Assembly: GCA_910592205.1 (NCBI GenBank)
Contig: CAJVPJ010000003.1
Coordinates: 41,513 to 105,512, forward strand
Direction of reading: 5' to 3'
Origin: Paraglomus occultum
Taxonomy: Eukaryota > Glomeromycota > Glomeromycetes > Paraglomerales > Paraglomeraceae
Length of the DNA stretch: 64,000 nt
Position numbers and translations under genes: made by a program. Every line of letters begins with the position of its first letter. The first letter of the stretch is position 1. Positions 18,239 through 56,406 of the stretch are shown here, piece after piece. The notes under the pieces are model-generated. The model was not told the DNA's origin. It did not search any database and saw only the letters and a program-made list of their open reading frames with translations.

Positions 18239-21200
18239 CTATCCAAACAAGCGAAAATGTTGAAATTCTTCGCTGTCCATATCAATCTCTACCCATCGAC
18301 GTCTTGCGCTCGTACTGGTGTCTCCATCGTTCCCGGTGGTACGTGCGTCTGGCGTTTTTTGACTAGTGTTGCTGTCCATTACATCAAGGGAGCTTTCATC
18401 GCCAAAGTACCCTTGAACGCTAGCTGTAATATTTGTCCGAGTATCCGTTTGAACTGTGGGTGCGTTATCGTTTTCAAGCGTGTTAAATATACGCAACAAA
18501 TGTTGGTACATTTTTGACATTTTTTCGTCGTCGTATCTGGATAGATTATAGAAGTATTGGAGTCGTCTGTCGTTTGTTTCGCAATCATCAAATTCATTCG
18601 TTTCGGGTACCTGGTCATTCAACAAACATTTTCAGATAGAAACTAACGCGAACAACGTGATACAGCATGTATTACTTCAAATCAAATTACCTCATCCTCA
18701 TCCGTGGTAACACCGTACAAATTGTGTAAATTTTCCTGATCATCGCATAATATTGAAAAACCAAGTAGCGATCTACTTGAACCGTATTTCGTAGCAATGG
18801 ATTCTTCGACTAATAAAACGCTTGCAAGTGCGTCATCCAAACTGCCAACACTTCGAAGACAAAGCTACGACAAACGCAAAGGGACGATTAGCAAAAAATA
18901 ACAACAGATTAGACAAAAATTTGTAGTAGCGACGGTACTTTTGCATGACATATTGCCAGAGTGAGCAAAGTCTAGTAATTAATAAAATAAGTATTAATTG
19001 TGAATAAAAAGACACATTATTTCTGTTTTTAATGATACCAACTTCTAGCAGGGCAGTCGACGATGAATAGCCATGACTTCCTCCTTTTAGTTTTCGAAAG
19101 GTTAAGTAGTATTTCCGAAGTAAATCTTTACATTCCTTTGACAATCTAATCTCGCAGTCGGTTAATAAATATTGCTTGTAAATACTTTTGACAAACATTA
19201 GAAAATTGCCTTACGTGACTTCGATGCTACGCGCCGCTACAATATACTATTAGATCGTGAGCATTGTTGGATATAAAAAACTAATATATTATTAACAGGG
19301 TAGAAATATTTACACTCTTAAAATCTTCCAATGACACGCGTCCATTGAGTTTTCCATTTTCGGAATATTGGTCGAAAACGTGATTAATGAGCGAATTAGA
19401 TGTTTCAGAGTCGACCGTTTCCTTTATATAAATTACAAGATCAAATGTACTTTTATACAGTAGAGTTATTATCACTTCGTGTGACTACAAAATTCGTCAA
19501 TTAATACTTACTCGACAATCGGCTTTACAAGAGCTCTGCATACAATCTACAGTAATCGTAATCAATATTAATGTAAACATTTATATGAATAATCTTGCTC
19601 TCGACCGTCAACCATCTCTTACCTCAACGCCATACTGATTCACATCTTTATGAGTTGGTAGGTTCTTTCCCTTAGTTGTTGTTTTTCTTGTAGTTGACCA
19701 TGCCCAGAGACACGCATCAATATCCATACACAACTGATGGTATTGTGTCTCCAGTGTCGGTTGTGAAGTAGGTGTCATGACTACCAATTAATATAAATCG
19801 TTGAAAGCTAATCGCATTACGGAAACAAGATCTTCGATGTAAAAACGATATAACCTATCATCGCCTTGCTACCTTGTCTAACATCATTAACGTCTTTCTT
19901 AGACAATGTTTCCATATCCACTAGTAAAATTCCATCATCAACCCTTGACAAAATTGTAGCTGTAATAATGAACAATATGTAATATTAATTTGCAATATTA
20001 ATATACAGTAAAGCATGCGTTTTTTATATTCACATTCGAGTGCTGCCTCCGACCGAGGTTTTTTTTCTCCGTACTCTACTGAAAAGAGTGGTTGTCTTTT
20101 ATTACCAATTCCATAAGTCCATTCCTCGTGTCTTGCAATGATATATTAGTATCAAATTATTGAAATTCAGACGAAAAAAAAAAAAAAGAAACAAAATTAC
20201 CTAGTAAAGTTGGATACATGTCGCAATAATCTTCTGACAGTATTATTGTATTTATCGCAAATAATAAGTAAATGCAGCTTATTAAAACTATTAATATGCT
20301 TGACAGGCTTCTCGGATATTGATATGAGACTTGTTAAATACAATAATGCGTTAGTATATATAATCATGCCGAAAACCGATTATATTATTATTAATTACCT
20401 TAATAACAGGCACAGTTTGATTTTCCTATATGCTTTTGTAGGGGCAACATCTTCTAAAAGTGTGTCAATTAATTAATAAATTTTTGTTTACTAAGCCAAC
20501 AATTACTCACCACAGAACACATCAACAACACGTTGAGTAAATGACCAAGCCGACAAATTTGCTGAAGTAAGTACAGTTAAAACTTGCTATTTTCAACATT
20601 TAAATTATACACAACGCTCTAGTTACCCGATTGCAAAAGAGTGAAGTATTCAGACGTTTGCATTAACCTGTCATGGTTATTGAGTGACTGATGCATCGAT
20701 GACAGTTATTAGCATTACTATTTGATTTACTATTCAAATCACGTTCACTTACCGCTATGTTTTTGATATTAATAACCTTTATATTTAATATCGATTAAAT
20801 TTTAATATTCATATGACAAACAACAAGAAAGCTTGTATGCACTTACTTCGACATGCACACCCGTGTCAATTGTATTGTTGACTCGGTATACGTTAGCTTT
20901 TACATTTACAATGTGTAAGAGATGTAGTGAGTACATTTTTCCTTGTAACATCAGCATATGTGACATACCATCAAGTCCATGAAAATGTCTCTTTGCAAAT
21001 CCAATAATTTCTACAAACTGTCCTATTTTTACTGCATTAGCAAAATCATCTACAGAAATGAGATATGAAGGAATACACGTCATTCAATGTACGAGACTAA
21101 GGACGCAGTCACTTGTAATGTTTTACGCGAACGTAACAATACCTGTGAGAACCGCAATAATACTGCCGCCGAACGATCCAGGCGGAGAAAGCGTGGGACT

Positions 21201-23251
21201 TTGGGATGAAATACGAATGCGTTGGTAAGCTGGATAGATAGGTTTCACATAATCGTGTCAATAATTACAAGAATAAAGCTAAATTTGTGAATAAATTGAT
21301 AGTAAAAGAAGGACTTAACTGGTATAGACTCTGTCTACAACTAGTTCTTTCATCCGAACACCGCAATGCGAACATTCTAAATCAATATCGTTTAACCTTG
21401 CGCTTAGACGTTTGCAAGTACATAATTAATAAAGTAATTTCGTTGTATGTCGTAATAAGACTTGTAAAAAAACCACAAAAACCTTGTGCTTGTTTTTAAA
21501 AACACTTTTCCCTCGGTCCGCTTAATTACTCGATTTGTGCGAGCAGTGGGAATTACGTGGAGATAATTCTGATTTCGACAGTGTGAATTCTCGCAATGAA
21601 ATGTTTGACTATATCTAGAAAAAAAATAATAAAAATAAAAATAAATACATATATCATTAGTTAAGTAAATAGTACTAATATTTGAGAATACGACAGCAAT
21701 CTACAAACATTTCAAATGATGGAAGCCACATGCAATCTATAACTCCACGTAATATACATAGAGACCCGTTTTCACAATATCTGGTAACGTCATATATCTC
21801 TGCGATCGTGTTTAACCTATAGCTGAAATGGCCATAATAAAAATTGGTCAAATGTATCCAAAATGTTGCTTCCGTGGCTCGCAAGCAATATTAACAACGT
21901 ACCTTTCGCTAACGGAGTTCAACCTGATCCTACACCTTACCTGCTCAGCGAGGAGTATACTGTCGTTCTCAATGATAGATTGAAGAATTATTAGCGATGC
22001 TGTCGTAAAATCCTCGGTTATGTCAAAGAATGTTTCAGGTGTTAGAAGAGCCGACAATAGCGGAGCTGACGCAAATAGTGAATTTTTTGTTAATTAAACA
22101 TTCGTTGTTTATATAAAAGAGAATACACAAACAGGTACCGTCAAAGGATAAAAGTGTCTTAGCGTTGATATTAAACGTAACGTTGTATCGATTTATAGTA
22201 GAATTATGCTGTAGTTAAACATAATGGTAGTTGTCATAAAGTGGCTTATTGAAATATATGCGTAAAAACACTATACAATACTTTGCTACATTCTCTCTGT
22301 GACTGTTCTTTTGCTTCATGAATTTCTTGCATATGATATCTTGTAATATCTTTGAAATAAATATATATAAATATATTATTGACATCGTTAATTTAAATTA
22401 AATTTGTCACGTACAGAGCCTAATTTTTTCTATGCGTCGCACTTCTTCCGAATCAACAGGTAGCAAACGATTGTCAACCGAAAGTACCTGTGAAGACTGT
22501 TTAATGTTTATTATCTTAGTATTCAACGTAAATTTCTATACTAATATATCTTTAATTCCTCAAAATTTTTTTTACATACTTCGCTCTCAGTGCTTTCTTC
22601 ACAGGTCTTTTGTTTTTTATCTGTTGCAAGCGAAAAAGAATATTTTTGTATAAAGTCCTTTCTTTTCTGACTTATTTTATTTTCTAGCGTTGTTGAAGTC
22701 GGATACAGTGATGGCGGGCATGACATTCCAAGCTCATTCGTCGACGAGTCAACAGACGAACTATCATCATAATCATGAACATTGTCTACAATGGTGTTAT
22801 CGTAGTTGACAGTACTATTGTCGAAAATATTTGCATTGGCGTGAGACGCGTTATCGATAATTCCACCACTTTTGTTTATCAAGTTATTTGCGTTTGAAGC
22901 AATTGTTCGGTCGCTGCCTCCTCTATTCCATTCTTTCTGTAACCATTCGTTACGTGGTAATCGAAATCTTGCCCAATAAGCATCCATATTTCTGATCGAT
23001 TGAGTTGCTGCTCTGTTTTTTGAACAATCATCGCCAGATAATGTAGTCTGCCGGGGGCATAAACATGAATAGTCATCCTCCTCTTCGGACGTCATGTCAA
23101 GAAATAAAGTGCTATCTGGTGTTTTAGGGTTCTCGTCTCGCTTGTTATGTGGAATAATTTGCACAGGTTTGATTACATTGTTTTTGGTTGCAAATTCATC
23201 GTAGCGTCCTGTTTTGGTGCAGTCTTTTTGACGTGTGCTGTCGTAGTTCAT
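18239..23251 (-). CDS. MCM-domain protein resembling MCMDC2 (degenerate ATPase)
   Basis: 22 exons on the minus strand: 23251-22580, 22487-22415, 22065-21903, 21822-21709, 21614-21483, 21396-21320, 21229-21143, 21049-20847, 20776-20753, 20586-20511, 20453-20399, 20329-20201, 20131-20106, 20078-20034, 19959-19873, 19780-19623, 19546-19512, 19449-19316, 19209-19043, 18971-18939, 18864-18691, 18610-18239; 1011 residues. Residues 1-224 are a disordered acidic/Asn-rich extension. About 250-515 is an MCM OB domain with a split zinc site (HCENSHC, ECSHCGV), then YQRIRISS and VKIGQFVEIIGFA. About 516-890 is an AAA+-like region where Walker A is lost (LHLLIICDKYNN) and Walker B is GILLVDMETL. A winged/lid part (EDFKS, TLLTLAICHAK, VLLVEESIATKYG) aligns in order with animal MCMDC2, as I recall it. 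A role in meiotic recombination is inferred, not shown. Exons 9 and 13 are only 24 and 26 nt. The exon 4-5 junction is the least certain. Confidence 0.78.
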
Positions 23252-25848: not shown

Positions 25849-29579
<3,731 letters not shown>

Positions 29580-31542: not shown

Positions 31543-32716
31543 TCATTTTTTAAAATTTGCTGCTAGGACAGCGACAAAAACACCCAAAACGGCACTGCCA
31601 ACCACAGCCCCGCCCATTACAACTCCTTTCCAAAATGTCACATCATATACGGCGGAGTTTGATATCTTCGTTTCCGGCTGAACGATAAACTGATCTTCTC
31701 CTTCAACGTCCTCATCATTAATACTCAGTCCCTTGATTTCATCCTCTTTCATTAATAACGTCACAGCTTTTGCTAATTCCTCCTTTAATAAATCGGTCTC
31801 TACTTTAATCCTATCCACCAATATCCGCCTCTTTCTCGGTTCAATCACTGTTTGAACCCAGATAAGCAATGCTACATTCGACGCCATCAAAGCAAAAGTG
31901 CCATATGTTGACCAATTCCGAATTTTGTCACTCCAAATATGCTCGTCATGATATCTCATCATCATGACTTGAATAAGTTCGGTAAACTCACGCTCGACTT
32001 GTTTGTCGTAGCGATGGCAATCCTCGCGCGTCGCGATCACTTTTTGTTCAATGGTTTGTTCATCACGTAATAATTGGGTTATACGTAAGAAATCGTCATT
32101 GGTCCACTGGTTTTTGCGTTGAAGAAGGTCATTGACCTCGCGTTGTATTTTGGATTGGGCTGCAATAGCTTGTTCATATGCATTTCTTGAGATTGACAGT
32201 TGTTGGCGTGCCTCTCGAAGTTTATGTTCTATAATATAGGTGAACGATGATTATGTTGAAAGGCAAGAATTGCGTTCACCCCCACCCCGACAGATTGAAT
32301 AAAAAGACTTTTCCAAATAATAAATGTGAAAGAAAACCTTGCTGAATTACTTTCTCTTTTATGCGTTCAATATCGTCATATCCCGAGCCTTCGTTTAAAG
32401 CTTTTTTTATTGTTTCTTGTCCTTTTTGTATATTGAGTAACTGCTTCTCACGTATTGCTTGTATGTTTGAGAGTGTAGCAGACAGCTTATTGCGAAGTAT
32501 GTTTTCTTGAGTTGCTAATGCGTTTCCTTCCGATCGAGTCTTATCCCCATTTTTTTCTATGGAGCTTTTATTCTCCGAGGAGAACCAGCAACGTAAAACT
32601 AGTCGCGAACTACTTTCTTTAGCATGCAACCAAGCAATTTCTACACCTGTTTTACTTTGGTTTATTGTTTGCTGCAAGGTGGATTTGGTGACTGCCAGTC
32701 TATGTGTTGACAACAT
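31543..32716 (-). CDS. SHE9: She9/Mdm33-like mitochondrial inner-membrane protein
   Basis: Two exons on the minus strand, 32716-32338 and 32228-31543; 354 residues. The N-terminus is basic and hydroxylated (MLSTHRLAVTKSTLQQTINQ), fitting a mitochondrial presequence. A long coiled-coil region follows (KLREARQQLSISRNAYEQAI, then QREVNDLLQRKNQWTNDDF). One membrane span is TYGTFALMASNVALLIWVQTV, and a second lies near the C-terminus (VVMGGAVVGSAVLGVFVAVL). Known: She9/Mdm33 forms inner-membrane assemblies that control mitochondrial shape and inner-membrane fission; the order presequence, coiled coil, two spans matches. The intron (GTTTTC..ATAG, phase 1) restores the family sequence across the join. 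The start codon faces that of the LYR-protein gene 99 bp away. Confidence 0.92.
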
Positions 32717-36769: not shown

Positions 36770-39700
36770 ATGCATATGCGACCGCATTTACTCTTAGCAA
36801 TAATAGCTCTAACTCAATGTGTGAGCGCAACTCAAGTTTCCTTTAGAAGCTGTGCAAACCAGCAGAGCTCTCTAAATGTCAACAGTGTGGACGTTCTGTT
36901 CGATGAAAAGAAAAATGAACTTGCCTTTATCATAGAAGGCGATTCGAATACGACAGTATACGGAAGTGGCCAGAATTTTCTGGGTAAGTAAGAATAGCAA
37001 GCAAAAGAGAGATAATTAAGAATTATATGAAGATACTCATATGGATTTCGTATCAATGTGACCCGCAATAGCGACCGCATTTACTACTGTTAATGTAGTC
37101 GAGGACAAGCTAGTCGATGACACGGAAAACTATTGTCAACAAACTGCTTGTCCATCTTATCCGGGACCTGTAACAATACAAAAGGTAATTATACAAGTGT
37201 CATATATAACGGTTGGATGTATCGATAACAGCTGGCGAATTCGCAACATAATACTATTCGCTGAATATGATCTATCGATTTTATCATGTAAATTCAATGT
37301 TTTCTGCCTCTGCATTAATCATTTCCCTTTACTATTCTCTTTTTCCAGATCGTGAACTTACCCCGCTCAGTCCCACTTACAACCCTAACTGTAACTTACA
37401 GAGCATCCGATGAAAATGCAACTCAAATTACGTGCCTCGACTTTGACTTTACTCCTCAATACAATTACTATTCTCAAGTTTTCACATGGCTCCCTGCTTC
37501 GATGACGCTATTCACCTGGGTTGCCAGCTCAATTGCATGTGTATTCAGCCCTGGTCAATTCACAACTGACATATTCCAAATTACAAGCAATCAGGGACAA
37601 TCCTTAAAGTTTAAGACTCCAGGGTTTTTTGATATAATGTTCTACACTCAATTTGCAATCGCAACTGCTCAGCTCTCGTTGGATTATCCTGGATATTATC
37701 AGCCGTTTATGAGTCATTTTGGGTGGGGTAGTTTGATATTCAATCACACTGAAATAGTATCGGTTCAGCATGAAATTCCTGCATTCAACAACATCAACAT
37801 CATTAAATCGAGAGCCTTGGAGCTTACAAAGAGGGTCGGGATATTCAGTTCAAATTCATTAACATTAACACTGCAAGAAAGTCTTGATTTGTTGGGAGGT
37901 CTTGGCAATTATGTATTATTTACGGGTCTACGTCCGGTAAACTTGTTTCCTGAAACTTTAGTTATTTTTTTAATAATATTCGCAATCGTGGCCGTGTTGT
38001 GTGGGCTGATATGGGGATCTTGGGAGACCCTGAAGACAATATTCTCCGAGAAGTTTAGAGGATCCACGGCTAAAGGGTTTTCTCTTTTACAAGGTAACAC
38101 TTGCATAGTGATTATAATGACGTGCTTATGCAATCAAGACTAACCGTTATTGTCTTACTATATAATAGGAAGTCTATTGCGCGTCTTCTTTCTCTTCTAC
38201 TTTCCGCTCCTCACAGCAGCCTTCTACCAGCTGACGATACGTAAACTCAACCCTGCGTGGGTCACAGTTCTAGCTGTGATAGTCGTACTCGTTCCATGCC
38301 TAACACTGCCCGTTGTATTGTCAATATATCTGTTACGTAGCGAACAACTCTCCACAGATTCCCATATGCTACTACGTTATGGCACTTTATATAACACATT
38401 CAAAAAGGATTATACATATTTTTTAATATTTGTATGGATATACCTGTTTCTCAGAGCGATGGTCACTGGAAGTGGACAAGACAGTGGTGCAGCACAGGCA
38501 ACTTTGTTACTTATAATAGAAATATTGTATTTGATCGCTATAGTTGTCAAACAGCCTTATAAACGAGGAGGGTTGAACACGATGTATGTAGTCTTAGGGC
38601 TGTTCAGGACGTTGATATCCGGGCTGCTTCTTTTGCTTATTCCGAATATTAATATCGCCAAGGATACTAAAGAGATAGTCGGGTATGCCATTATAACTTT
38701 TCATGGGCTGGCATATTGTACATTCACATTTCTCGCTTTGAAACACCTACTTGAAATATTACTCCGTTGGTGCGGATTACTTGAAAAGCAAGACGCGGGC
38801 GTGGTGTCACACAAAGACAGCACCAGTAGATATTCTGCGCCTAGTGATAAGCACAAAAGCAGTGCGGGTAACAGTGACGAGGAACGTAGAGGAAGTAATG
38901 CTACTCCTATTCGCTACGGACCCCACCATACGTATGAGCATGTCCATGACGGGTCAGTGAGTGGGAGCGCATTCGAAGGAGACCACACCGTATCTGATGA
39001 AAATGGGTCTACATATCACGGGTCACAAAGACTATCTTCTGCTGATGTTACAGATGAAAGTTATTACCGTCCATCCAAATTAGAATGGATAAAAAGGCAA
39101 CAATCACAAAGTAATGGTAGAGAACAACCGACATCGGGAGCTGCACCAGTATACTTTAGCGATGCGATCGACGAACGCAATAATAGTATGAGCTCATATT
39201 CCTTCCCATCTAACAATTCGGACATAGTCGCGTCTATGAGCTTACCGAGACGAACTCCGTTAGGACAAATGACCAATATTCAGCCGTGGAATCCTAACAT
39301 GCAAACGTCAGCATCCGGAGTCGCTACTAATGTCCCTCCCGTGCATGGACGACTCGGATCTGTTGATTCAGTAATAATGATGCATCCCGGTCCAGTCTCT
39401 AGTACGGCGGAAGAGAGCACGACTTATCAACCACCACGTCAGCCACTTGCAGGCGAATATAGTACGTTTGGGAGGCAAAATGGCGTTTCTGAAAATATTA
39501 TTGCTCCTCCCCCCGGAGTAACTCAACCCAGTCAGTCTAGTTCGTTTCTTTCTCGGTTTGCCAAGAAAATATTTGGTTTTAAGAAAAAGCAAGATGAAAT
39601 GAGCTCTGGTCCATACAGTGCATCCCGCTTCGATAATGGATCGTTGATAGATAGTCGAGTAGCTGGGGTCGACCGTACACTATTTGTTGTCAACCCGGAT

Positions 39701-40360
39701 AATCCTCATAGAGCGAGTATTGTTCACGTTGGATTCCCTGCATCTGAAGATTATGATACTGACACAAGGCGGGGTGAAGATAGGAATGATAATAGGAGCG
39801 GAAATAATTTTGCAAGCGAAAGTCGAGATAATACAAACGCCGGGCTTTTCACCAACACGTCTACGGGAATGTTATCAACTGGATTATCGGGCAGATCATT
39901 AGGATCACCTAATTCGTTTAACAGTTCTACTAACACATTGAGGGACGAGTCAGTTGGTCGGACATCTGATACTCTAACCCGTAGGTCACCTTATTCCGTA
40001 TCGCCGACTTTCTCGCCCAATTTACCCCCCTCTATATTGCCCACCATGTCGCCGAATTTGCCACCCACCTCAACACATTCAACGCCTGCTTTGTTGCCCA
40101 CATTATCATACACCGCGCAATCTCCTGCACCACGTACTTTTACACCTATTTCACAACGTTCTCTGTCACCCCTTCCATTATCTCAATCTGCTAATACCTA
40201 CAACATAGTTCCTCAATATGACTATGCCACTGGTAGTGGTAGCCAAAGGTTTGAAATTGACGCAACAAGGAGCGTAGGATCAAGTACGTCCAGTCGCTAT
40301 GACGAGGATGAGGAAGAGATTCATCCTATAGATAGTGGATATCAGAATAATTTCATATGA
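36770..40360 (+). CDS. TRP-like ion channel / Flc-family protein with ML-like domain
   Basis: Four exons, 36770-36983, 37072-37184, 37349-38093, 38169-40360; 1087 residues. Residues 1-20 form a signal peptide (LLLAIIALTQCVSA). An extracytoplasmic ML-like domain follows with paired cysteines (FRSCANQQ, YCQQTACPSYPG, ITCLDFDF). From about 135 to 570 there are about nine hydrophobic segments, e.g. LVIFLIIFAIVAVLCGLIWG and VTVLAVIVVLVPCLTLPVVL, plus the conserved VKQPYKRGGLNTMYVVLGL. The last ~500 residues are a Ser/Thr/Pro-rich, probably disordered cytosolic tail. Known: this domain order defines the fungal TRP-like family (S. pombe Pkd2, yeast Flc1-3), involved in calcium and cell-wall or ER functions. 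The tail is longer than in the yeast proteins. The first ATG of two close in-frame ATGs was used; the second starts two codons later. Confidence 0.93.
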
Positions 40361-46517: not shown

Positions 46518-49250
46518 ATGACTTCTACCATCTCTGAAAATAAACCAGAAAAAAAAGTCGTCCAATGTCGTCAAGAAGCAGCCGAACAAGGAGATGTTAG
46601 TTCTCAGTACCTTATTGGTTGGGGTTACCAGCATGGAACTGGTGTAGAAAAAGATGAACACAAAGCAGTTGAATGGTATCAAAAAGCTGCTGAACAAGGA
46701 CATGCTAGAGCACAGTATGATCTTGGTTGTTGTTATCAGCATGGAACTGGAATAGAAAAGGATGAAAAAAAAGCTGTTGAATTGTATTCAAAGGCTGCTG
46801 AACAAGGATATGTTAGTGCTCAATTTATCCTTGCTTGCTGTTATGATAATGGAACTGGAGTAGAAAAAGATGAACAAAAGGCAGTTGAATGGTATCAAAA
46901 AGCAGCTGAACAAGGAAATATTGATGCACAATATAATCTTGCTTATTGCTATCAGCATGGAACTGGAGTAGAAAAAGATGAACAAAGGGCAGCTGAATGG
47001 TATGAAAAAGCTGCTGAATGTGGATATGTCAATGCTCAATTTAATCTTGCTTGCTGCTATGAGGATGGAGCTGGAGTAGAGAGAAATGAACAAAAGGCAG
47101 TTGAATGGTATCAAAAAGCTGCTGAGCAAGGATATGTAACTGCTCAATTTAATCTGGCTTGCTGTTATGAAGATGGAGCTGGAGTAGAGAGAGATGAAAA
47201 AAAGGCAGTTGAATGGTATCAAAAAGCTGCTGAACAAGGATATGTAACTGCTCAATTTAATCTTGCTTGCTGTTATGAGGATGGAACTGGAGTGGAAAGA
47301 GATGAACAAAAGGCAATTAAATGGTATCAAAAAGCAGCTGAACAAGGGCATGTAAAGGCTCAATATAGTCTTGGTCGTTGCTATCAGTATGGAACCAGAA
47401 TAATTAAAGATGAACAAAAAGCAGTTGAATGGTATCAAAAAGCAGCTGAACAAGGGCATATGAAGGCACAATATAGTCTTGGTTGTTGTCATCATGATGG
47501 AATTGGAGTAAGAAGAAGCCATAGACAAGAGGCAGTTGTATGGTATCAAAAAGCAGCTGAACAAGGACATGCTAGTGCACAATATCGTCTTGGTTGCTGT
47601 TATCAGAATGGAACTGGTGTAGCCAGAGATATACAAAAAGCAGTTGAATGGTATCAAAGAGCTGCTGAACAAGGCAATGATAGTGCACAGTATACTTTGG
47701 CTTCCTGTTATGAAACTGGAATTGGTATAGTAAGGGATGAACAAAAGGCTGCTGAATGGTATCAAAAGGCTGCTGAACAAGGACATACTAGTGCACAATA
47801 TAATTTGGCTTGCTGTTATGATAATGGAACTGGAGTAGTAAGAGATGAACAAAAGGCAGTTGAATGGTATCAAAAAGCAGCTGAAGAAAGACATACCAAA
47901 GCACAATATAACCTTGGCTTGAAGTATCAAGATGGAATTGGAGTGAAAAAAGATGAACAAAAGGCAGTTGAATGGTATAGAAAAGCAGCTAGACAAGGAC
48001 ATATGAAGGCACAATATATTCTTGGTTGTTGTTATCAGGATGGAATTGGAGTAGGAAGAAGCAGTAAACGAGAGGCAGTTGAGTGGTATCATAAAGCAGC
48101 CAGACAAGGACATGCTAGTGCACAATATAGTCTTGGTTGCTGTTATCAGGATGGAACTGGTGTAGTCAGAAATAAACAAGAAGCAGTTGAATGGTATCAA
48201 AAAGCAGCTGAACAAGGGAATGCTAGTGCTCAATATAGTCTTGCACATTGCTATGATTTTGGAACTGGTGTAGAAAAAGATGAACAAAAAGCAGTTGAAT
48301 GGTATCAAAAAGCAGCTGAACAGGGATATGTGAAGGCACAATATGATCTTGCCATGTGTTATAAGAATGGAAGTGGAGTAGATAAGGATGAACAAAAAGC
48401 AGTTAAATGGTATCAAAAAGCTGCTAAACAAGGACATGTTAGTGCACAACATAAGTTAGCATCCTGTTATGAAACTGGAACTGGGGTAGAAAAGGATGAA
48501 CAAAAGGCAGTTGAATGGTATCAAAAAGCTGCTAAACAAGGACATACTGGTGCACAGTTAGATCTTGCTTACTGTTATAGTAATGGAATTGGAGTAAAAA
48601 AAGATGATCAAAAGGCATTTGAATTGTATCAAAAATTTGCTAAAGATGGCATTGCTACTGCACAATATTATCTTGGTTCTTATTATCTACATGGAATTGT
48701 AGTAAAGAAGGATGAACAAAAAGCAGTTGAATGGTATAAAAAAGCAGCACAGCAAGGAAATGCTAGTGCTCAATATAGGCTTGGTCGCTGCTATCAGTAT
48801 GGAATTGGAATAAGAATAGATATACAAATGGCACTTGACTGGTATCTAATGGCAGCTGAACGAAGTCATGCAAGGGCACAATATAAGCTTGCTGTATATT
48901 ATGATTGCAAATTTATGATTAGAGTGGAAAGATATGAACAAAGAGCAGTTGAATGGTATGAAAAAGCAGCTGAACAAGGCAATATTGCTGCACAAAATAA
49001 TCTTGGTTGCTGCTATCAATATGGAATTGGGGTGGAAAAAAATGTACAAAAAGCAGTTGAGTGGTACCAAAAAGCAGCTGAACAAGGCAATATTGATGCA
49101 CAAAATAATCTTGGTTGGTGTTATCAATATGGAACTGGGGTGGAAAAAAATGAACACAAAGCAACCAAGCTATATCAAAAGGCAGCTGAAGCAGAATATG
49201 TTAGGGCACAAGGTTTGATTTATATTTATACATATATTATTACTGAATGA
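46518..49250 (+). CDS. Sel1-like repeat protein, 24 repeats, intronless
   Basis: A single exon of 910 residues. After ~25 residues it consists of 24 consecutive 36-residue Sel1-type repeats (consensus GTGVEKDEQKAVEWYQKAAE then QGxxxAQYxLxxCYxxG). Residues around 880-910 form a short hydrophobic tail. No signal peptide or catalytic domain is present. Known: Sel1 repeats are TPR-related helical hairpins forming a solenoid that binds other proteins; in yeast and animals they occur in ERAD adaptor Hrd3/SEL1L and chitin-synthase activators. Here, with no membrane or signal domain, a cytosolic scaffold role is a guess. The repeat is also conserved at the DNA level (108-bp unit), implying recent expansion or conversion. 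Lack of introns contrasts with most neighbours. A 554-codon antisense frame is a by-product of the repeat. Confidence 0.95.
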   Translation: MTSTISENKPEKKVVQCRQEAAEQGDVSSQYLIGWGYQHGTGVEKDEHKAVEWYQKAAEQGHARAQYDLGCCYQHGTGIEKDEKKAVELYSKAAEQGYVSAQFILACCYDNGTGVEKDEQKAVEWYQKAAEQGNIDAQYNLAYCYQHGTGVEKDEQRAAEWYEKAAECGYVNAQFNLACCYEDGAGVERNEQKAVEWYQKAAEQGYVTAQFNLACCYEDGAGVERDEKKAVEWYQKAAEQGYVTAQFNLACCYEDGTGVERDEQKAIKWYQKAAEQGHVKAQYSLGRCYQYGTRIIKDEQKAVEWYQKAAEQGHMKAQYSLGCCHHDGIGVRRSHRQEAVVWYQKAAEQGHASAQYRLGCCYQNGTGVARDIQKAVEWYQRAAEQGNDSAQYTLASCYETGIGIVRDEQKAAEWYQKAAEQGHTSAQYNLACCYDNGTGVVRDEQKAVEWYQKAAEERHTKAQYNLGLKYQDGIGVKKDEQKAVEWYRKAARQGHMKAQYILGCCYQDGIGVGRSSKREAVEWYHKAARQGHASAQYSLGCCYQDGTGVVRNKQEAVEWYQKAAEQGNASAQYSLAHCYDFGTGVEKDEQKAVEWYQKAAEQGYVKAQYDLAMCYKNGSGVDKDEQKAVKWYQKAAKQGHVSAQHKLASCYETGTGVEKDEQKAVEWYQKAAKQGHTGAQLDLAYCYSNGIGVKKDDQKAFELYQKFAKDGIATAQYYLGSYYLHGIVVKKDEQKAVEWYKKAAQQGNASAQYRLGRCYQYGIGIRIDIQMALDWYLMAAERSHARAQYKLAVYYDCKFMIRVERYEQRAVEWYEKAAEQGNIAAQNNLGCCYQYGIGVEKNVQKAVEWYQKAAEQGNIDAQNNLGWCYQYGTGVEKNEHKATKLYQKAAEAEYVRAQGLIYIYTYIITE

Positions 49251-51000: not shown

Positions 51001-52473
51001 ATGGCGAAGCTTGTCTCAGCCGAGGAGGTCGCAAAACACAATAGCCGCAACGACTGTTGGGTTATCATTCACGAAAACGTTTATGATCTAACAAATTTCC
51101 TACCCAAACATCCGGGTGGAATAAATGTTATTTTAAAGCAGGCAGGAAAGGATGCTACTGCTGCATTTGATCCAGTGCATCCTATAAGTATTATTCAACA
51201 GTATTTACCTCCCGAGATGTGTCTCGGGAGAATTGATCCAGCAACTGTCACAAAGACTGCAGAGGCCGATAGTGAGCAGAACAGACGACGTCAGGTCATG
51301 GAAAAAAGACCTAATCTGGATGAAATGTTGAATCTGTTTGATTTTGAAGCTGTTGCTTCTCAAATTCTTACCAAGGAAGCTTGGGCTTACTACAGCTCAG
51401 GAGCTGATGATGAGGTTACCATGAGGGAAAATCATGAAGCGTTTCGTCGCATCTGGCTAAAACCGAGAGTATTAATTGACGTTTCAAAAATTGACATTAG
51501 CACTACTATACTTGGCCATTATTCGTCGTTTCCTTTGTATATAACAGCAACTGCTCTTGGCAAGTTAGGTCACCCCGAAGGTGAAGTTGTTCTCACACGT
51601 GCTGCCTATACTCATAAAGTTATCCAAATGATACCAACACTCGCTTCTTGCTCCCTTGATGAAATGGTTAATGCGCGTGGCGAAGGACAAGTACAATTCT
51701 ATCAGTTATACGCAAACCCGGATAGAAATATAACAGAGCGCGTAGTTCGTGCGGCCGAGGCCAAGGGTTGTAAAGCTCTTTTTATTACTGTAGATGCACC
51801 TCATTTAGGTCGTCGCGAAAAGGACATGCGTCTGAAATATGTTGAAGCCCCGCCTGATTTGCAGGAAGAGAAGGATATTCGTCGTGATCAAGGCGCTGCT
51901 AAAGCTATGAATAGTTTTATTGATTGCAGACTCAAATGGGCTGATTTGGAATGGTTTAGATCGATCACGTCAATGCCTTTGGTGCTAAAAGGTATCCAGA
52001 CAGTTGAGGATGCGGTGATGGCTGCCAAGTTGGGAATGGAGGGCATAGTACTTTCTAATCACGGTGGAAGGCAGCTTGACTTTGCGAGGTCAGCTATCGA
52101 AATACTCCCCGAGGTTGTTCAAGCTTTGAAGATTGAAGGCCTATATGATAAAATAGAGATTTATATTGATGGGGGCATTCGCAGGGGCACGGACATTTTC
52201 AAAGCTATCGCTCTTGGAGCGAAGGCTGTTGGGATCGGTAGACCTATGTTATATGCCATGTCTGCATATGGTCAACCAGGCGTTGAGCGTGCTCTACAGT
52301 TGCTTAAGGATGAGCTGGAGTTAACTATGGCTCTAGCTGGTGTGACAAGTATTCGTGAGTGTGGGCCGCAATACTTGGATATTAGGGATTTGTATAATCA
52401 TGGCTCCGTGCCTACTGATTATTTGACAAAATCTGTGTACGATAAACCAAAGCCAATGAAGGGTAAACTGTAA
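51001..52473 (+). CDS. CYB2: L-lactate dehydrogenase, cytochrome b2 type
   Basis: A single exon of 490 residues. Residues 1-80 are a cytochrome b5 domain with heme ligands in FLPKHPGG (His37) and FDPVHP (His60). Residues ~110-470 are an FMN-dependent alpha-hydroxyacid dehydrogenase barrel: YYSSGADDE (Tyr130/131), FYQLYANPD, TVDAPHLGRREKDMR (Asp265), and the catalytic LSNHGGRQLD with His353 and Arg356. IYIDGGIRRGTDIF is the FMN phosphate-binding part. Known: oxidises L-lactate to pyruvate and passes electrons through heme to cytochrome c. Odd: yeast Cyb2 carries an ~80-residue mitochondrial presequence; here the protein starts directly in the b5 domain and an in-frame stop lies upstream without another ATG, so it may be cytosolic or have an unseen upstream exon. 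It is convergent with the Zn2Cys6 gene, stops 195 bp apart. Confidence 0.95.
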   Translation: MAKLVSAEEVAKHNSRNDCWVIIHENVYDLTNFLPKHPGGINVILKQAGKDATAAFDPVHPISIIQQYLPPEMCLGRIDPATVTKTAEADSEQNRRRQVMEKRPNLDEMLNLFDFEAVASQILTKEAWAYYSSGADDEVTMRENHEAFRRIWLKPRVLIDVSKIDISTTILGHYSSFPLYITATALGKLGHPEGEVVLTRAAYTHKVIQMIPTLASCSLDEMVNARGEGQVQFYQLYANPDRNITERVVRAAEAKGCKALFITVDAPHLGRREKDMRLKYVEAPPDLQEEKDIRRDQGAAKAMNSFIDCRLKWADLEWFRSITSMPLVLKGIQTVEDAVMAAKLGMEGIVLSNHGGRQLDFARSAIEILPEVVQALKIEGLYDKIEIYIDGGIRRGTDIFKAIALGAKAVGIGRPMLYAMSAYGQPGVERALQLLKDELELTMALAGVTSIRECGPQYLDIRDLYNHGSVPTDYLTKSVYDKPKPMKGKL

Positions 52474-55600: not shown

Positions 55601-56406
55601 CCTGTTGTTGTGCGAGTACAGCGAAATCCGCGTAGTTTAGAACATGATGCGGATCGTACTATCAAAAAGTTGGTTATGCGTTCAAATTAATGATCTATCA
55701 AATACTTATTCCGACTCCGTTTCAGGCATTCGGAATGGAGTGGCTTGGGCGAGGATAGAATTTGTGAGTATCACTTAAATTTTTAAGATACGTACCAGAC
55801 GTTGTTCTTTATCCCTATCAATCTGCGCAGCTATTTCCGTAGAGTAGCTTAATGTTTCTGCTGCAAGATGTTGGATAAGGTTATATTGGTCTGAAAACAA
55901 TGCGCTGTCTCCCTGTTGAACAGATAAAATAAATATATAAACATTAATAACTGCACGGTATACAAATCATACATTATAGCATACGAATATATAATACTAA
56001 CAGGAATCCTGAATAGATCATTATTTCTCAGCGGTATGTCTGGTGCGGCTAATATATTTGCTATTTGGTCTCCATTGGTCATGTCCACTCCAGCACTCTT
56101 AACGGCAACGGCAATGCAATTTTGCATTTGAACGACATTGTTGAACTGTGTATTCATCAACTCTTGCACTTGTGCCTTCATGTACTCCAATTCAGCACGC
56201 GATCTGGCCCCACTTTCTCTCATTTCATGTGTCGTGTCAGAATACTTGTAACCACACTCACGACCCGTCTTCTTGCATGTACCGCATTTTGGTCTCACTC
56301 TGTCACATTTCACTTTCCTGTTCTTACAAGTATCGCAAGTAGATACTAGCTTAACCCTTTTTGCGGGTGGTGGAGGGCGCAAGTCAGAAAACCCTGCAAC
56401 ATTCAT
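52669..56406 (-). CDS. Zn(2)-Cys(6) fungal-type transcription factor with MHR domain
   Basis: Eight exons on the minus strand: 56406-56002, 55912-55796, 55658-55284, 55140-54969, 54897-54815, 54747-54596, 54513-54176, 54041-52669; 1004 residues. Residues 24-51 are the binuclear zinc cluster C-X2-C-X6-C-X6-C-X2-C-X6-C (CDTCKNRKVKC then CGTCKKTGREC), followed by a short coiled coil. The middle homology region spans about 200-640 (RYTPFLRRAIFHNAL, LLILNCIFFAAAPFHHD, MLFELGLHRKI, AFWMIFISENFISAAYGRP, LHLFYGVVLILLHSRYL). The last ~300 residues are Pro/Gln/Ser-rich, likely an activation region. Known: sequence-specific nuclear regulator; target genes cannot be deduced. Exon 7 ends at a GTACGT donor: reading past it meets a stop. 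The neighbouring lactate dehydrogenase is a possible but untested target. Confidence 0.94.

Follow-up and report, generated by a model that had tools for sequence, protein, structure and literature searches.

A putative MCMDC2 ortholog with a degenerate ATP site in the mycorrhizal fungus Paraglomus occultum

Does Paraglomus occultum, a root symbiont without an observed sexual stage, carry the MCM-like protein that serves meiotic recombination in animals? The question is raised by a gene on the minus strand at positions 18239 to 23251 of a 64,000-nucleotide stretch of its genome (hereafter, the window; GenBank assembly GCA_910592205.1, contig CAJVPJ010000003.1, positions 41,513 to 105,512), which a first-pass annotation made from the sequence alone had assigned to MCMDC2. 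We find that reciprocal profiles favor mammalian MCMDC2 over solved MCM2-9 structures for this gene. The locus is probably (at a probability of about 0.8) the P. occultum ortholog of MCMDC2, with its ATP-site residues lost, and it would most likely work in meiotic prophase in a complex with MCM8, as a subunit without catalytic activity that stabilizes or extends strand-invasion intermediates. The gene is not a first: it is a new sequence in a known family, and MCMDC2 is already the recorded name of two fungal proteins, P0002 of Gigaspora and P0009 of a chytrid.

Structure of the gene

The spliced model describes an intact single gene, running from an ATG at 23251 to a stop ending at 18239, exactly the span that had been proposed. 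It comprises 26 exons, rather than the 22 counted in the first-pass annotation, and encodes 1046 amino acids; all 25 introns are bounded by GT-AG, are in phase, and measure 57 to 94 nucleotides (mean, 74.9). Exons of 24 and 26 nucleotides had been predicted, and the former exists (exon 12, 20776-20753) but the latter does not, the next shortest exons having 32, 33, and 35 nucleotides. All 22 matches of the spliced protein in the P. occultum genome (32.3 Mb in 1408 contigs, with the window on contig C3) fall within the locus, giving a copy number of 1. The features previously read from the sequence (a split zinc site, YQRIRI, IGQFVEIIGFA, WSFTQ, LHLLIICD, GILLVDMETL, and LVEESIATKYG) all appear in the spliced protein.

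Each of exons 2 to 25 shares identities with both Gigaspora P0002 and Rhizophagus P0003, the weakest internal exons against the Gigaspora protein being exon 11 (4/16 identities) and exon 13 (5/20); the tails encoded by exons 1 and 26 are only weakly conserved. Splice sites were adjusted using mycorrhizal homologs, so the splicing and the homology do not count as independent evidence. In Pfam, the final model clears the cutoffs for MCM (32.4 bits versus 23.3) and MCM_lid (32.8 versus 27.4) and falls below that for MCM_OB (17.0 versus 24.8). The deposited P. occultum protein (P0001, 815 amino acids), which is 82% identical to an interim model and identical to the final gene in most exons, deviates at exons 20 and 21 and is without exons 3 to 8 and 12, which costs it the zinc site and the greater part of the MCM N-domain; in Pfam, it passes for MCM_lid and fails for MCM (21.8 bits).

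Several other models of the locus were discarded. A draft made without homology, from codon and splice scores, joined the wrong exons and had no Pfam MCM match; an interim model had only sub-threshold MCM matches; and 25-exon and interim 26-exon models were dropped because the homologs revealed missed segments. A canonical MCM whose Walker A was lost to mis-splicing is ruled out, as exon 16 is open and the homologs are also without the lysine, and two unrelated genes are ruled out by homology that is continuous through exons 2 to 25.

Family assignment and ATP site

A first protein search (E ≤ 0.001) returned nine matches, of which eight came from Glomeromycotina and the ninth from a chytrid, and six of the seven mycorrhizal matches from outside Paraglomus were 40 to 45% identical across 98% of the searched core. 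A second search, with the resulting fungal alignment (E ≤ 0.01), returned 11 matches: seven from the first set, one protein from Acaulospora, one of metagenomic origin (P0011), and two ordinary MCMs (P0012 and P0013). MCMDC2 homologs are thereby placed in six mycorrhizal genera of the Glomeromycotina, Paraglomus included, and in a chytrid; since both searches consider a protein only if it has short words in common with the query, they do not show absence of MCMDC2 from other fungi. The family annotation PF26063 is carried by the listed mammals and by Gigaspora P0002 and P0008, and not by the deposited Paraglomus protein (without exons 3 to 8).

A human MCMDC2 probe supplied the animal sequences (best match, 97% identical), and the animal set consists of the 120 listed of 547 matches, all mammals where named, of which 11 entered the mammalian profile (A3) and 4 entered the trees. 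The fungal profile (A2) includes the core of the window protein, whereas the mycorrhizal-only profile (A4) was built from seven rows without it; neither P0001 nor P0008 entered the profiles or the trees. Aligned to each other with hhalign, the fungal and mammalian profiles match with a probability of 99.7 (E value, 3.9e-27) over 584 columns at 26% identity. The mammalian profile scores Rhizophagus clarus at 97.6 bits, Gigaspora at 95.2, the window protein at 76.5, and metagenomic P0011 at 56.9, and its top solved structure is MCM9, at 37.2. In the opposite direction, the mycorrhizal-only profile gives three mammals 86.3, 78.7, and 67.4 bits versus 32.0 for MCM9 and 31.0 for MCM4, and the fungal profile gives mammals 101.8 to 117.0 bits. 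Full-length rows are therefore nearer to MCMDC2 than to solved MCM2-9 by profile in both directions.

The phylogeny agrees with this placement. In a 23-row tree that set 10 MCMDC2 proteins of fungal or metagenomic origin and four of mammals beside human MCM8 and MCM9, an archaeal MCM, and six Paraglomus MCM fragments, fungal and mammalian MCMDC2 unite apart from the other MCMs with support of 100/100, bearing out the first-pass assignment. Constraining the fungal rows to group with MCM9, MCM4, MCM8, or the archaeal MCM was rejected in four of four tests (for MCM9, P = 5.13e-05 in the approximately unbiased [AU] test). A position inside MCM2-9 with an intact Walker A, which the first-pass annotation had named as evidence against its assignment, was not seen. 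In the same tree, the divergent MCMDC2 relative P0011 (665 amino acids, from a 19-kb metagenome contig) sits on a long branch and has the chytrid row as its partner (93/87).

Pfam matches, alignment of the zinc pairs, and the predicted fold of the Gigaspora ortholog indicate that the MCM architecture is present in one chain, with an N-domain containing zinc and OB parts, an AAA+ core, and a lid. The fold was predicted from 39 rows, P0008 among them, with a mean predicted local distance difference test score (pLDDT) of 61.0; an earlier prediction from 18 rows, with a mean pLDDT of 40.5, was set aside as poor.

The ATP site was compared in a motif alignment of 14 MCMDC2 rows with nine canonical MCMs, at the positions of Walker A, Walker B, and the arginine finger. 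The Walker A lysine is absent from all 14 MCMDC2 rows and kept in all nine canonical proteins. None of the 14 rows keeps the DE pair of Walker B, which reads LVDMETL in the window protein, MVNLDSL in Gigaspora, and, among mammals, FIGDLTSH in mouse, for example. The arginine of the finger is likewise missing from 14 of 14: in place of SRFD, 7 of the 10 rows from fungi or metagenomes read DTFD, whereas Funneliformis has DTFH and the chytrid SKFD. Both Walker motifs are thus replaced, as had been claimed, and of the three marks of MCM2-9 proteins (intact Walker A, Walker B, and arginine finger), the window protein has none. Loss of the Walker motifs has been described for MCMDC2 and MEI-218 in accounts of the animal proteins (PMC5070785 and PMC6553819).

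Among the nearest known systems, mammalian MCMDC2 is, like the fungal protein, a one-piece MCM with two zinc pairs, no Walker A lysine or arginine finger, and a broken Walker B, and about one-quarter of its matched residues are identical to those of the fungal proteins. The remaining comparisons are by description only. Drosophila MEI-217 and MEI-218 are MCMDC2 orthologs with a degenerate ATP site, but in Diptera two separate proteins carry the N-domain and the ATPase-like domain, whereas the fungal protein is in one piece. Tetrahymena Mcmd1 is likewise a meiotic MCM-like protein whose MCM domain is without ATPase motifs (PMC6922451), and it is described as having somewhat more in common with replicative MCMs than the other proteins have.

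MCM8, proposed role, and alternatives

A Pfam MCM search of the genome yielded six loci. Five of these, judged by eye, look like MCM2, 3, 4, 5, and 6; the sixth (contig C611, about 15800-12867, minus strand) is an MCM8 ortholog, scoring 206.7 bits with solved MCM8 versus 158.6 with the best non-MCM8 structure and grouping with human MCM8 at 98/97 in the 23-row tree. Its Walker A reads GDPGTPAAQ, with the lysine lost, its Walker B reads VEDL for IDEF (the order of the acidic pair being swapped), and its arginine finger reads SHFD for SRFD. HOP2 (PF07106) and Rad51-family and MutS loci were also found. No MCM7 or MCM9 locus was recognized in the 32.3-Mb genome copy, which is smaller than the 44-Mb published assembly as given in PMC9453076. 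Family searches of the same copy found neither SPO11 (PF04406) nor MND1 (PF03962), a weak negative because these families are short, their exons are split by introns, and the copy has 32.3 Mb whereas 44 Mb was published from another assembly.

Published accounts of the animal protein supply the proposed role. As described in PMC5070785, mouse MCMDC2 is required for meiotic recombination, and no important role was found there in mitotically dividing cells; it is thought possibly to act with MCM8 (PMC5070785 and PMC13060065), which itself is described as lost in some fungi (PMC13060065). By analogy, fungal MCMDC2 would be a non-catalytic subunit that binds MCM8; the pair, if expressed in meiosis, would work in meiotic prophase; and the complex would stabilize or extend strand-invasion intermediates, as proposed for animal MCMDC2. 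Beyond the gene structure, the family, the ATP site, the six genera, and the presence of MCM8, we infer every step of this mechanism from sequence.

The family assignment has to be weighed against the possibility that the gene is a degenerate fungal copy of MCM9, or of another MCM, whose ATP site was lost independently and which came to resemble MCMDC2 by convergent decay. The tree program flags long branches, and a number of results count against our assignment: with mammals removed, the fungal clade adjoins MCM9 (92 in the Shimodaira-Hasegawa-like approximate likelihood ratio test); with fungi removed, the placement of the mammals is unresolved; and both removal-tree branches are about four changes per column. 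The top solved structure is MCM9 for the mammalian and mycorrhizal-only profiles, and the fungal profile ranks MCM4 (69.4 bits) and then MCM9 (62.6) first; the mammalian profile gives the short Acaulospora model (39.7 bits) and the chytrid (38.7) no better scores than it gives MCM9. Likewise, only three of 10 scanned proteins reach the Pfam cutoff for MCM and five of 10 that for MCM_lid, the 39 rows of the second fold alignment included an archaeal MCM, and in the search with the fungal alignment no animal protein appeared and the chytrid was missing. It is the profiles, not the tree alone, that carry the MCMDC2 claim, and there the reciprocal scores of full-length MCMDC2 are about twice those of MCM9 or more. 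Together with the AU rejection and a profile match that is nearly end-to-end, this makes descent from MCM9 or another MCM improbable. MCM9 itself retains GDPGTGKS, IDEF, and SRFD.

Two further alternatives accept that the gene exists as described and differ over its use. A true MCMDC2 ortholog might serve homologous recombination in somatic cells, or a parasexual exchange among nuclei, instead of meiosis, a possibility that draws on the mitotic roles of vertebrate MCM8 (PMC5070785) and that we hold open as a minority view, given how little mouse MCMDC2 appears to matter outside meiosis. The gene could also be a decaying relic of a lost sexual cycle, as the missing Walker A lysine of the Paraglomus MCM8 might suggest; this is very unlikely, since the Walker A lysine and the arginine finger are absent from the mammalian rows too, and since 26 in-frame, GT-AG-spliced exons and conservation over six genera speak for selection on the gene. 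Within the preferred reading of a meiotic MCMDC2 ortholog, we tentatively suggest that Paraglomus may keep a mei-MCM pair in which both ATP sites are broken and which would serve strand-invasion intermediates as a clamp or scaffold on DNA, without unwinding. In flies, a Walker A mutant of the MCM8 protein REC retains Class I crossovers, most of which are lost in a Walker B mutant, as described in PMC6553819; this weighs against a simple parallel, and the Paraglomus MCM8 is altered in both motifs. The degenerate MCM8 makes a testable prediction, that of a meiotic MCM complex working without DNA unwinding.

The presence of MCMDC2 in six Glomeromycotina genera and a chytrid suggests that the family is no younger than the last ancestor that animals and fungi shared. 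The first-pass annotation had held that such a gene would bear on whether meiosis occurs in this mycorrhizal lineage; it does add one more testable sign of hidden sex to an existing case, but it does not open the question (PMC9453076), meiosis-related genes having been reported in other mycorrhizal fungi (PMC6281316 and PMC4771724). As the mouse counterpart is described as having no important role outside meiosis, the gene may serve as an expression marker for fungal meiosis. MCMDC2 has been studied in mammals and flies and an MCM-like meiotic protein in Tetrahymena, according to the sources consulted (PMC5070785, PMC6922451, PMC13060065, and PMC6553819). Among the literature matches listed, no title concerned fungal MCMDC2 (the gene lists of inventories such as Halary et al. 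2011, and supplements, lay outside this scope), and no match combined MCMDC2 with mycorrhizal fungi.

Exons and other features of the window

Table 1. Positions of the MCMDC2 exons and of other features in the window
Feature	Position	Strand	Basis
Whole putative MCMDC2 ortholog, ATG to stop, 26 exons, 1046 amino acids	18239..23251	-	Spliced model, exon-wise homology, single copy
Exon 1: start codon, long N-terminal extension (224 codons)	22580..23251	-	Weakly conserved
Exon 2	22415..22487	-	Spliced model, exon-wise homology
Exon 3: N-terminal domain begins; not in P0001	22282..22349	-	Spliced model, exon-wise homology
Exon 4; not in P0001	22139..22208	-	Spliced model, exon-wise homology
Exon 5; not in P0001	21903..22065	-	Spliced model, exon-wise homology
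Exon 6; not in P0001	21709..21822	-	Spliced model, exon-wise homology
Exon 7: zinc pair 1, FHCENSHC; not in P0001	21483..21614	-	Alignment, spliced model
Exon 8: zinc pair 2, LECSHCG; not in P0001	21320..21402	-	Alignment, spliced model
Exon 9: OB part, YQRIRI	21143..21229	-	Spliced model, exon-wise homology
Exon 10: OB part, IGQFVEIIGFA	20969..21049	-	Spliced model, exon-wise homology
Exon 11	20847..20896	-	Spliced model, exon-wise homology
Exon 12: 24 nucleotides, VINIKNIA; not in P0001	20753..20776	-	Spliced model, exon-wise homology
Exon 13	20627..20687	-	Spliced model, exon-wise homology
Exon 14: WSFTQ	20511..20561	-	Spliced model, exon-wise homology
Exon 15	20399..20453	-	Spliced model, exon-wise homology
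Exon 16: degenerate Walker A, LHLLIICDKYNNTV versus GDPGxxKS of other MCMs	20201..20329	-	Motif alignment
Exon 17	20034..20131	-	Spliced model, exon-wise homology
Exon 18: degenerate Walker B, GILLVDMETL versus, e.g., GICCIDEFDKM of other MCMs	19873..19959	-	Motif alignment
Exon 19	19623..19780	-	Spliced model, exon-wise homology
Exon 20: 35 nucleotides; P0001 deviates	19512..19546	-	Spliced model, exon-wise homology
Exon 21: DTFDLV at arginine-finger position (SRFDL in other MCMs); AAA-lid match begins	19314..19449	-	Pfam, motif alignment
Exon 22: 32 nucleotides, AAA-lid	19215..19246	-	Spliced model, Pfam, homology
Exon 23: AAA-lid	19043..19145	-	Spliced model, Pfam, homology
Exon 24: 33 nucleotides, AAA-lid	18939..18971	-	Spliced model, Pfam, homology
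Exon 25: AAA-lid ends, LVEESIATKYG	18691..18864	-	Spliced model, Pfam, homology
Exon 26: C-terminal tail and stop	18239..18610	-	Weakly conserved
Open frame, Muskelin N-terminal domain	29127..29579	-	Domain match, 69 bits
She9/Mdm33 domain	31543..32040	-	
TRP channel domain	38150..40360	+	
Long open frame of Sel1 repeats	46518..49250	+	23 stretches, 998 bits
554-amino-acid open frame	46788..48452	-	
490-amino-acid open frame, cytochrome b5 and FMN dehydrogenase domains	51001..52473	+	
Fungal Zn2Cys6 cluster domain	55849..56406	-	

Elsewhere in the window, the 554-amino-acid frame lies on the strand opposite the Sel1-repeat frame, and the pairing of cytochrome b5 and FMN dehydrogenase domains is as in flavocytochrome b2.

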